A stretch of DNA of 64,000 nt, taken from assembly GCA_963669155.1 (NCBI GenBank), contig OZ022577.1, positions 10,192,963-10,256,962 of the forward strand, read 5' to 3'. The stretch comes from Arbacia lixula (Eukaryota > Echinodermata > Echinoidea > Arbacioida > Arbaciidae). This document shows positions 7,358 through 30,671 of this stretch, one piece after another (the stretch's first letter is position 1; every line of letters begins with the position of its first letter). The position numbers were made by a program, and so were the translations under genes. The notes under the pieces are model-generated. The model was not told where the DNA came from and made no database searches. It worked only from the letters and a program-made list of their open reading frames with translations.

Positions 7358-9149
7358 ATGGAGCAGTTTGGGAGTGAGGGTGACCGCAGAGGAAGAGCCA
7401 GTTCCTCGGCAGTCCTCACCTCGCCAACTTCAGACGGTAAAAAGAATGGCAATGGAGGTGCTGCGAACAGAATGCAAGCAGTTCGAACTGAAACGATAGA
7501 AGAGACCGTCTACGTGTATGAAGAATCCTACAGCGAGAATGGCAACCCTGCCAACGGGTCTGCAGCCAGGAGGAAGTCAGAAACCCTGATTGGGGAACTC
7601 CTAAGAAATGGTAGGTCACACAGGCGGCGGTCATCTAGCCCAAACACCAGCAAGGAAGCCTCACAGGTCAGGAATGCGCAAAGGAACTCAAAGACCTCAG
7701 GGGAGATTGATCCAGGATATGATAATAGCGCGAATTGCCCACCTGGAAGTGGTGTACCAATGAATGAAATATATCCACCGCCACCAGTAACATATTGGAA
7801 GGTAGATTCCCCTGGGACACAGTCACAAGAAGTAGCTTCACACGCAGTGGATGATGATTCTGTTGCTTGTACAGTTTCAGCGAGAAATCCGGTTTTTGCA
7901 AGGTCAAATTCGTCTCCAAATGAGAATTCCTACAACATTAGATATAATCCAGCATATAGAGACGATGAGAGACGTCGCCCGATCAATGCGAGTGATCCTT
8001 CTTGGGACAACCTGAGCCAGTTTCCACCGTCATCGGAGGGAGTTGGAAGACACCATGAGTTGGACTTGGAAAACCCATGGGCTGGTCTTGTTCCAGGGTC
8101 ACGTCTTCAACCCCCAACTTCCTTGAGCATTGTGGACAGGTCGCCTGGGAGCATCCAGGACAACAACACACCGAGCGATATTGAATTCTATGACTGTAAG
8201 TCTCAACTCGGTGAGCAGAGAGAGACCCCCGACCAAGAACTCTTTACTCCCGAGATGGACAATAGTGTCTTCAAGTCGAACTTTGTAGACGGGAAGACAT
8301 TGAATGGGGTAAGTGGAAGCCTTACTCAAGAATCATCCGAGAGATGGCAACCGGGAGCGGAAGGTCATCAGGGTGTCCCTCAAGCATGGTCTGAGCTAGA
8401 GGCAGGCAATGTGAGCTTCACAAGGAAGAGTGATGGATACGGCAGAGCTCCTGATATGGAAAGTTACAACTTCCCCCTTCCCCCAGACCCAGTACGGATT
8501 CCAGTGATGCCACAGAACCCTATTGGAGGTGCAGCAAATCCCGCAAATGTAGGAAAGTCTGGATCCAGTAGTGGATCCGGACCCATGGATAAATTCAAAC
8601 GGTTCTTGTCCTTTGGCGGAGACAAGGCCACCAATCAAGGGAATACCAATCCATCCTCCCCACCTACTCCTCCAAGTTTCTCCATGTCCTTCCCGTCTCT
8701 TCCTGACCTCCCACCTTCTACCAAACTCTTTAACTCTTTGAACCTGTCCGACGGCCAGGACGACTACCACTCCCAGCCGCCCTCCGGCCACCAGCAGCGT
8801 CCGGCCACGACGCCCAACGAGCGTGGAGAGAAGAGCTGGTGGAAGAGCACGGCCTACAGCTTCCCGACCCCGGAGATCACCCTCAAGAGACCGCAGACCC
8901 TCTTCAAGTTCAACTCCTCACCCTATGACAAGGACGCTGAAACGCGAAAGACTAGGAGGCGTTCGACGGAAAGGTCCGTGGAAGGGTTGGCGAGCCCAAT
9001 GTCTGCCAGTCTTCGGCTGCTGAAGTCTCCTGGGGGTGCGGGGACCCCAACATCAGCATCGAGGGAGCCCTTAGCGTATGCTACGGCCAGGGAGAAGCAG
9101 GCCAAGCTGGATTTCAGGATTAACTTCAAAGATCAAGCCAACTTTACAG
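7358..9149 (+). CDS. formin (FMN1/FMN2/Cappuccino family), N-terminal exon
   Basis: This is a 1,792-bp exon encoding residues 1-597 and ending in phase 1 at the donor CAG|GTGAGG. The ATG at 7358 is the first Met after an in-frame TAA at 7340-7342. The product is long, Ser/Pro-rich and probably disordered. It has a Pro run near residue 140, a basic KFKRFLSFGG patch at about 412-421, a SWWKST...FPTPEITLKRPQTLFKF segment at about 493-520 and an Arg-rich RKTRRRSTERS stretch. It ends in ...FTG, which continues into the next exon as FTGRRLLDWL. Formins of this family nucleate and elongate unbranched actin filaments through a C-terminal FH2 domain. Only the N-terminal regulatory half is seen here. 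No GTPase-binding DRF domain is visible, which fits FMN/Capu formins. Family assignment rests mainly on the next two exons. Confidence 0.75.
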
Positions 9150-10918
9150 GTGAGGCTACATGAGTCTATTTTTATGGTGTGAAATGTTCCATCATAGATT
9201 TGCAAAATGCATTTATCTGCAAACTGCCCGTGAGTATTTGTTTAGGTTTTTGATCTACTTTAAACAGTAAAGCACAGCTTAAGTGTGTTTCTCAAAAATA
9301 TTGTTTTACAAATATTTCATGACAAAGTTATTGTCTATGACCTATATTACATGAATCCACGATATGTCAACCATGACCTCAACCTGGGCCATATTACACA
9401 TTACATTTAATACCAATTATAACATGTGCAACACTTGAAACTGCCGCGGAATTAGTCAATCAACTCTGAGCATTAATTGTAGTTGTTGCCATGGACGTTA
9501 CAATACAAAATGTTAAAAGTTAACTAATAATGAACAGAATATGTCATGTTGGCTCCTTTGTATTATTTGCCCAAATTTTACAAATATATTTATAAGTATC
9601 CTTCCTTCAAATATACCTGTACACACCCCCCTTCACCCTTACCTTTACAGTCGTAAGAGCCTGCGTTCTACCCACAATTTATTATGTTTCACCCAAACCA
9701 TTTACAAGTTCATATTCATGTCCATACCCTACAGTACATAAAGAGCTACAGTCAGTACATGTATCAGCATGCTGAGAGAGAGTATGTCTCTAGCCATGGG
9801 GCTCGCCCTTTCTCCTAAAAGTATTGATTCTCAGTCCTTGTGTGTGTAATTGTGTGATGCAATTAAACTCCAGCAGTGCATTATCGGATTGACCTGTTTC
9901 ATACTCGCTAATTAGCTCCACAAAGTACTATACATGGACACAATGCTTACAGTGTATACAGTGTGAATTGTATTTCCCCTTGCCTTGAGTTGATGTGTGC
10001 TTTCTATTATACAGGTACATGTACCTGCCCTTCATATGTGGGGTACATGTGGGGACCATTATCATAGGAATGGGTCACACACTAGTGGCTAGGAGGTAAA
10101 CAAAGTACAGTTTCTGTAGACCTCTTAGTTTATATGTAAATCAACAAAGAACTGTACCAGTATATGTAAATAATGTAATATTATTTATAGCTCAAATGTG
10201 AAGCTTGCTATTGAATGCCTACTGTTACTGAGTCTTCTGTTACCTCAAATTCTCAGCATTTTAATATGATCCATTCTGAACAGGAGTTATTTCCTTCTAA
10301 ATGTCATCAGACGCTCATATTTGTCAATTGTGTGTTTGCCAGCATACCATGCAATAGGGTCATCTACACTAAAAATAAAATCACTTTGGAAAAATCATGT
10401 TTTCTTCAACCTACTATTTAAATTGGCCTAAGCCTGCAGAGCAGTTCAACAGAATTTTTGGCCGTAGTCTGCATGCGCTACATGTCCGCCAGGGTATTCA
10501 AACGTGTGCAGAATGCATGAGACATGTGACTCAGTGCACATCTGTATGGTTAGCGATTCATTATTTTTTATAGAGAAAAATCATGATTTTTGCTGGCAGT
10601 GTAAATGGCCCTAATTGCAAACATTTTCCATGCGGGAGAGGATTCTGCCAAACCCCGTGCAAGAAGGTCAGGTGGTGTGCGGCACGTAGAGGTGATGAAA
10701 GGAGGAGAGGCTGTCTGTCGTCAATGGGTCTTATCGCTGGGCATTCCTGCACGACTGTAGAGGGGATTATGTAGCCTTGCGTCTACCCTGTTGTACGTTT
10801 CTGATCCAAACTGAAAACTAAAGTCTGGAAAGCCGTATTTATCATGGCTCTCTTTCCTTAGTCCTTCGGTTCTGAGAAGCAATTGAGAATTGTTGGTCTA
10901 CTGCAGCCAGACCACTTG

Positions 10919-11115
10919 ATTGAATAGACCACTTTCGTTATGCAAATTTTATATACATCTTTCAAAGAATACATTACTAATGGTAACCCCAAAGCTTGTT
11001 CGAGGTTTGTCAACAACTAATAGGCAGAGTGCGTTCCATCCATTGAAACTGAATCACAAAATACAGGTGAATGAAATGACGCATGACCGGGAAGTTCGGG
11101 GGAAAGTTGTGAATA
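10919..11115 (+). repeat. dispersed repeat family A, copy 1
   Basis: The signature is AATACATTACTAATGG, then AACCCCAAAGCTTG, then TCGAGGTTTGTC, then CATTGAAACTGAATCAC. The same ordered signature occurs at 15271-15610 on the + strand and at 60811-60970 on the - strand. No ORF or terminal repeat is visible, so it is a non-autonomous interspersed repeat of unknown class. Confidence 0.7.
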
Positions 11116-29353: not shown

Positions 29354-29423
29354 ACACACACACACACACACACACACACACATATATATATATACACACA
29401 CACACACACACACACACACACAT
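29354..29423. repeat. (CA)n(TA)n(CA)n microsatellite
   Basis: Two CA arrays flank a short ATATATATATA core. Confidence 0.95.
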
Positions 29424-30053
29424 AAACACAATTAACGCACTCCTCATTTAAAGATACAAAAGGATTGAACGGGAATAACTGGATTATATTTCATACATAT
29501 CTCCATGTATTTACATTATATATACTCACAAAAAATACATGTACCAGAATACTAGAGAATATCTTTTTTGTGTGAATACAATACGGGGTATAACATTATA
29601 CATCATACAATATGTACAATGTGAATATCTCATATCTGTTGTTATACAGATAGTATTAATAGTTAGCTGAGTGCAGTATAAATCATTGCATAAATACGGC
29701 TTCTAGGTTCCCATAACGCTCCGCGATGCGCCGAGCGGTGTCGAGAACCAAGCGATTATGTCGTCACCATCGTGTAGTCACGTGATGATTCGTTATCCGC
29801 CAATGAGCACTCGCGTCCACACGGTACCACTTTATACCATACGTGGTACGGCATTGTGTCTGGCAAATACGCCGAGAGACTGAGAATAGTAATGATAATG
29901 ATAGTTATAACAATAATACATTTTGATAATATGTATGTCACGTTTAATTTGAAAGCATCTCTTCAATCAATGTCGTAGTCCACAAAAATGCATAAATAAA
30001 GTGAAAATAGTTTTGTAGAGTTTCGTATGATTTCCAGTCGGAGTGGTCTATAT

Positions 30054-30671
30054 CTAAGGAACCTCCACGGCCATACATCTGCATCGCTTTACTCTTTGCA
30101 CGCGTTTCCGTTTGGTAGGCGGGTCCTGCCCCGGACACCGCAGAGTCACCGTGATCGTGCTCATCCGAAAAGGTTTGCAAAACGAGCACGACTTAAAGGC
30201 GTCGTTATACGACATCGACTGTTTGGGGATAAAGAACGAGTTGCATTGCCCGTAGCAGAATCGGTTGGCGATGACCCTGGGGATGCATCCGGGCTCTTCG
30301 ATGCGCTGTTTGAGCGGTTGTGTCTTGCACCAGTCCCCGCGGAGTAATTGCTTTTCGGTGATCTGCACTGCCTCGTCGCTGGAGGGTTTCAACACCTTGT
30401 GCGGCGCGATGCGGATCTCCGTGCCGAGCGCGACGGGGGAGAGTTCGAGCGGCAGGGCGGGTCGTTCGACGGCGTCCTCGTCTTCGTCGTGGTGCGACGA
30501 TTTTAAGAGCTGCTCCTCCAGGAGGAATAGGGGGTTGGTGGGTGGGAGGTAGGGGGTGTCGTCCCGACGGCGGTCTGACGACGAGGCCCGGGCAGGGGTG
30601 TCGGAGACCACCGTAGCCTTCGCCAGGATTGGGATGAGCCAGGTCATGCACAGCAGACACGGAATCAACAT
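30054..30671 (-). CDS. GREM: gremlin, secreted DAN-family BMP antagonist
   Basis: This is a complete 205-aa protein. Residues 1 to about 18 form a signal peptide (MLIPCLLCMTWLIPILAKA). A variable acidic/basic linker runs to about 112. The DAN cystine-knot domain starts at DWCKTQPLKQ and ends RCRCMAVEVP. Nine domain cysteines (115, 129, 139, 143, 162, 165, 179, 197, 199) have exactly the spacing I know for vertebrate gremlins. The blocks NRFCYGQCNSFFIP, SCSFCKPF, VTLRCPG and PPTKRKRVQRVKRCRC are near-identical to them. The basic PPTKRKR stretch fits the heparin-binding region of the family. Gremlins bind BMP2/4/7-type ligands outside the cell and block receptor engagement. The whole coding region lies in one exon, as in vertebrate GREM1. 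The ATG has a good context (GGTCGCCATG). Orthology to GREM1 versus GREM2 cannot be decided, and a pre-duplication gremlin is expected outside vertebrates. Confidence 0.97.
   Translation of the reverse strand: MLIPCLLCMTWLIPILAKATVVSDTPARASSSDRRRDDTPYLPPTNPLFLLEEQLLKSSHHDEDEDAVERPALPLELSPVALGTEIRIAPHKVLKPSSDEAVQITEKQLLRGDWCKTQPLKQRIEEPGCIPRVIANRFCYGQCNSFFIPKQSMSYNDAFKSCSFCKPFRMSTITVTLRCPGQDPPTKRKRVQRVKRCRCMAVEVP

Follow-up and report, generated by a model that had tools for sequence, protein, structure and literature searches.

Introduction

In vertebrates, FMN1 and GREM1 are neighbours in convergent orientation, as are FMN2 and GREM2, and RYR accompanies FMN and GREM in man. Published accounts place FMN2 beside gremlin 2 (PMC5274524) and describe limb enhancers of gremlin within the formin introns of vertebrates (PMC11933693). 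Among the open-licence papers retrieved on the FMN-GREM pair, one looked relevant to invertebrates: a 2014 description of the Grem/SOSD scaffold of the limpet Lottia gigantea (PMC4079206). According to this source, the scaffold shows limited synteny to three human chromosomes and two amphioxus scaffolds. DAAM, LGMN, and FMN are among the shared genes, and these neighbours of limpet Grem are assigned to chordate linkage group 11 (CLG11). Here we describe a pair of the same kind in the sea urchin Arbacia lixula, in a stretch of 64,000 nucleotides at C2:10192963-10256962 (OZ022577.1), hereafter the window. The window carries the 5' part of an FMN-type formin on the + strand and a gremlin on the − strand, separated by an assembly gap. 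That FMN and Grem are linked outside vertebrates has already been published for the limpet; the present locus adds the orientation and closeness of the two genes, both seen across the gap.

Gremlin and the formin N-terminus

The window holds two real genes: gremlin and the 5' part of an FMN-type formin. Their coordinates are summarized in Table 1.

Table 1. Features of the window (coordinates are window positions; N, undetermined base)
Feature	Position	Strand	Basis
First exon of the FMN-type formin, with a putative ATG; 597 codons and 1 further base, left in phase 1	7358..9149	+	uninterrupted frame; GT donor preceded by TTTACAG
Second formin exon, central part of the conserved N-terminal block (divergent DEP-like); entered in phase 1, left in phase 0	13398..13621	+	splice sites, FMN2 alignment
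Third formin exon; entered in phase 0, left in phase 1	14541..14709	+	splice sites, FMN2 alignment
Scaffold gap of 200 N separating the third formin exon from gremlin	23001..23200	.	sequence
Minisatellite with 8-bp unit, directly past the gap	23297..23936	.	repeat scan
Gremlin coding sequence, single exon, DAN domain	30054..30671	-	Pfam DAN, solved relatives, genome ranking

The identity of the − strand gene as gremlin is certain. The open reading frame at 30057-30698 matched Pfam DAN at 123 bits (cut-off, 22), and its closest solved relatives were Gremlin-1 and Gremlin-2, with an expect value (E) of ~1e-42. Three DAN matches were found in the genome (606,990,701 bases, or 607 Mb, in 590 contigs), and the one in the window ranked strongest. 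The ATG, at 30671, is also the end coordinate of the first-pass annotation, whose call of a gremlin on the − strand is borne out by the DAN match and the solved relatives. With the DAN domain in common and Gremlin-1 and Gremlin-2 as its nearest structures, the predicted protein shows no notable difference from the DAN-family antagonist of bone morphogenetic proteins. The product should be a secreted antagonist of this kind.

On the + strand, three exons with consensus splice sites join in frame to give 728 codons without a stop. Comparison with human FMN2, in a sequence entered by hand rather than taken from a database record, supports an FMN1/FMN2-type formin N-terminus as their product. At the exon 1/2 junction, the predicted residues read NFTGRRLLDWL, as compared with NVFTGRTLLEKLF in FMN2, and at the exon 2/3 junction they read VFKLDSMYCW, as compared with SFDQDQLYTW. 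In exon 3, PPPKPSEDE corresponds to PPSKPPDEE of FMN2, the two having a PP-KP-E stretch in common. Using standard gap costs, the block alignment with FMN2 covered the second half of exon 2 together with exon 3 and scored 70, a value reached by none of 10,000 shuffles (mean 30.2, standard deviation 5.2, maximum 64). Under looser gap costs, the alignment extended to the exon 1/2 junction and scored 110.5; the maximum of 10,000 shuffles was 94. BLASTP of the block against FMN2, as a single comparison, gave E 1e-5. The shuffles under either gap cost and the BLASTP value uphold the proposal, made at first pass, of a formin N-terminus on this strand.

Exon 1 matched one place in the genome, on C2. 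Similarly, exon 2 alone identified a single locus, also on C2, the next match having E 3.6. When exon 2 was searched together with its intron tail, 150 matches were obtained, nearly all of them to the tail, which is a repeat. These genome-wide searches for uniqueness covered exons 1 and 2.

The FH1-FH2 half of an FMN-type formin on C7

The genome contained 27 FH2 matches, none of which lay inside the window. The best matches of the FMN2 FH2 domain clustered on another chromosome-scale scaffold, C7, at C7:27471923-27481270 (9 of 13; 38-71% identity); the remaining four fell at different formin loci, on C2, C6, and C7. Analysis of the C7 region using tblastn yielded 11 colinear FH2 pieces of 40-88% identity; a twelfth listed match, at E 0.22, lay elsewhere on C7. 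Polyproline stretches occur in the C7 frame 27471248-27472015 and run into the start of FH2. Of the features that mark the FMN subgroup, the proline-rich FH1 ahead of FH2 and the subgroup-type FH2 itself were present on C7, and the N-terminal block common with FMN2 was present in the window. The window is devoid of FH2, and its formin possesses one only if both halves are one gene. Within C7:27422001-27492000, a search with exons 1-3 gave nothing better than E 0.5. The searches accordingly reveal a single FMN start, which lies on C2, and a single FMN end, which lies on C7.

The two halves agree in phase. The segment C7:27469744-27469805 is a 62-nt open exon that follows a polypyrimidine tract and AG, reads HQQLIMGLKREHKEQLSHLQ, and is entered in phase 1 and left in phase 0. 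A first scan missed this exon, as its GTTAG donor was disallowed; it was located by a looser scan and its sequence then read. Next on C7 comes the coil/FH1 exon, which runs from 27471284 and is entered in phase 0. Since exon 3 in the window is left in phase 1, the reading runs through from C2 to C7. The window gap starts 8.3 kb past exon 3, and a second 200-N gap, on C7, ends ~7.5 kb before the 62-nt exon. Both gaps sit in the same (third) formin intron.

The gap interval and the spacing of the two genes

In the scaffold as given, the formin and gremlin converge on one chromosome across the 200-N gap. Because this gap separates the formin exons from gremlin, the linkage of the two rests on scaffolding. 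Inspection by eye of the frames listed from 14.7 to 30 kb revealed no recognizable gene; the gap belongs in this interval, as probably does the C7 contig. The 15-kb spacing between formin exon 3 and gremlin cannot be trusted. If the C7 contig belongs in the window gap, the coordinates place the last FH2 exon found at least ~27 kb from gremlin. The first-pass annotation had a formin and a gremlin facing each other within about 23 kb. Both genes and their orientation hold; their adjacency and the distance are not established, the 3' part of the formin being on C7 and an assembly gap lying inside the interval. More generally, anything that spans the window gap in this assembly is unreliable, be it the distance or the genes in between, and an automatic annotation may list the formin as a pair of partial genes on different chromosomes.

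The minisatellite directly past the gap may be the reason for the contig break. The piece that carries gremlin, C2:10216163-10316162 (window position 23201 onward), is exactly 100,000 bases long and lies between two runs of N, the second of which is at least 800 long. This exact length looks like a scaffolder's cut.

Companion genes and comparison with known pairs

The genes that accompany FMN and Grem elsewhere were located mainly on C2. DAAM lies at 34.63 Mb (closest solved relative DAAM1, E 5e-25; next, Formin-like protein 3, E 9e-16), all three RYR matches lie at 7.35 Mb, and 6 of 10 legumain-family matches lie at 27.75 and 34.65 Mb. Within C2:34.63-34.66 Mb, DAAM is ~15 kb from a legumain-family peptidase; the two form a further part of the same ancient linkage group. 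Because gremlin, DAAM, RYR, and most of the legumain matches are on C2, the misplaced element is probably the FH1-FH2 contig on C7 rather than anything in the formin-gremlin linkage.

The arrangement resembles the vertebrate FMN1-GREM1 and FMN2-GREM2 pairs in that an FMN-type formin and a gremlin converge close to each other in the scaffold as given. It differs in that vertebrates have two pairs, whereas one was found here, with the 3' half of the formin on another scaffold. As on the limpet scaffold, Grem occurs with FMN, DAAM, and LGMN nearby; the limpet text gives neither adjacency nor orientation of FMN and Grem where it treats the scaffold (PMC4079206), whereas both are seen here, across the gap. 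The convergent pair supports a linkage older than the vertebrate genome duplications. This had been suggested at first pass; the pair itself and the presence of DAAM, RYR, and legumain on C2 speak for it, although the limpet case means that it is not new as a linkage.

Evaluation of alternative explanations

Overall, it is very probable that A. lixula has a single FMN-type formin and a single gremlin that lie close together, converge, and descend in this arrangement from an early bilaterian ancestor, and that the formin was split by scaffolding through misplacement of the C7 contig. One gene split in this way is indicated because the phases run through, C2 is the only scaffold with exons 1 and 2, and both gaps sit in the same intron. 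The assembly would have broken the formin in its third intron: exons 1-3 would have remained on C2, and the contig bearing exon 4, the coil/FH1 exon, and the FH2 exons would have gone to C7 though belonging in or near the window gap. The early bilaterian ancestor would have had a convergent formin-gremlin pair, which was doubled in vertebrates to give FMN1-GREM1 and FMN2-GREM2. The formin itself should nucleate and elongate actin, as other FMN-subgroup formins do.

A number of results weigh against this explanation. Some concern the identity of the + strand gene: the whole 728-residue, low-complexity N-terminus did not align significantly with FMN2 (39 of 1,000 shuffles reached the score), plain tblastn with the FMN2 N-terminus recovered exon 3 alone at E 0.21, single exons matched no Pfam family, and a tblastn search of the window with the FMN2 FH2 domain returned six unconvincing matches (best E 2.7). 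Taken with the use of a hand-entered FMN2 sequence, these could mean that the exons belong to some other gene with a DEP-like domain that lies beside gremlin by coincidence. We consider this highly improbable: the block matched FMN2 better than all shuffles under either gap cost, window block and FMN2 resemble DEP with similar weakness, the block occurs at no other locus in the genome, and its phase continues into the C7 formin. Others concern the join to C7. The GTTAG donor of the 62-nt exon is not the best consensus, agreement in phase alone has a chance of ~1 in 3, and the C7 coil region is only weakly like FMN2 (score 46, reached by 207 of 10,000 shuffles). No overlap was found among the four contig ends, and the C7 sequence examined from 27462273 to 27502000 showed no gap and did not extend to the far end of that contig. 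A C-terminal FSI motif together with FH1-FH2 has been described as the only obvious defining feature of FMN formins (PMC11231147); a simple pattern scan past the last FH2 exon found no FSI tail, and its exon may have been missed. Finally, C13 and C39 carry the remaining 4 of the 10 legumain-family matches, and the join of the formin exons to gremlin crosses a gap as well, such that it too is scaffolding evidence.

This last point, together with the exact length of the gremlin piece, as if cut at a scaffolder's bin edge, is what might be expected if the formin lay wholly on C7 and the contig with exons 1-3 had been misjoined to the gremlin contig, the animal having no formin-gremlin linkage. 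Such a random misjoin would have had to bring the formin start to the sole gremlin in the genome, and in the convergent orientation seen in vertebrates, and DAAM, RYR, and most legumain matches are on C2 as well; we regard it as improbable. The split might instead be real, a translocation having taken the FH1-FH2 half to C7 with the first exons staying by gremlin, perhaps for gremlin enhancers inside them. In favour of this, both halves retain open frames and intact splice sites, and each was found once. Nevertheless, both breakpoints are assembly gaps in the same intron, which scaffolding error predicts and translocation does not, and the C7 half opens with an internal exon in matching phase. 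A translocation is therefore very improbable, and its fuller form, in which the broken formin left its first exons by gremlin as a bystander fragment that holds gremlin enhancers, is more doubtful still. If true, this fuller form would offer a naturally occurring test, in a non-vertebrate, of the regulatory lock between FMN and GREM.

Under the explanation that we favour, a single pair with its formin split by scaffolding, the convergent FMN-GREM pair of a non-vertebrate adds weight to the idea that, in vertebrates, the FMN1-GREM1 regulatory arrangement arose within a gene neighbourhood that is much older. It is therefore reasonable to test for enhancers inside invertebrate formin genes.

A DEP-like block in the formin N-terminus

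The conserved block lies at window positions 9100-14600, comprising the end of exon 1, exon 2, and the start of exon 3. Judged by its Pfam match, it resembles a divergent DEP domain, both here and in human FMN2, and is best termed DEP-like. The sole Pfam match of the spliced block was DEP (PF00610), at E 0.061 for the intact block and 2.9e-4 with its serine/proline loop cut. DEP was also the best Pfam match of the FMN2 counterpart, at E 0.0039. The bit scores, 21.1 with the loop cut, 13.7 with the loop, and 17.5 for FMN2, are all below the curated cut-off of 32.7. None of eight shuffled versions of the cut block matched any Pfam family.

Searches for solved relatives of exon 2 (best E 0.86) and of the spliced block (best E 0.096) returned weak chance matches only. 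The predicted structure of exon 2 alone had its elements in the order helix-helix-hairpin; with a mean predicted local distance difference test (pLDDT) score of 58.5, its quality was too low for a fold search. The N-terminus of FMN formins has been described as as-yet uncharacterised (PMC11231147). A literature search for the DEP domain with FMN2 returned nothing evidently about such a block in the FMN N-terminus.

Other features of the locus

No transfer RNAs or Rfam families were found in the window. Long GA and TC dinucleotide arrays lie between the gap and gremlin, at window positions 25139-25293 and 26455-26946. To the right of the window, C2:10288130-10292203 (−) encodes a MutL-type mismatch repair gene that we take to be MLH3. 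It is followed at C2:10297532-10300146 (+) by a C2HC zinc-finger gene, presumably ZC2HC1C. MLH3 and ZC2HC1C are close together on human chromosome 14.

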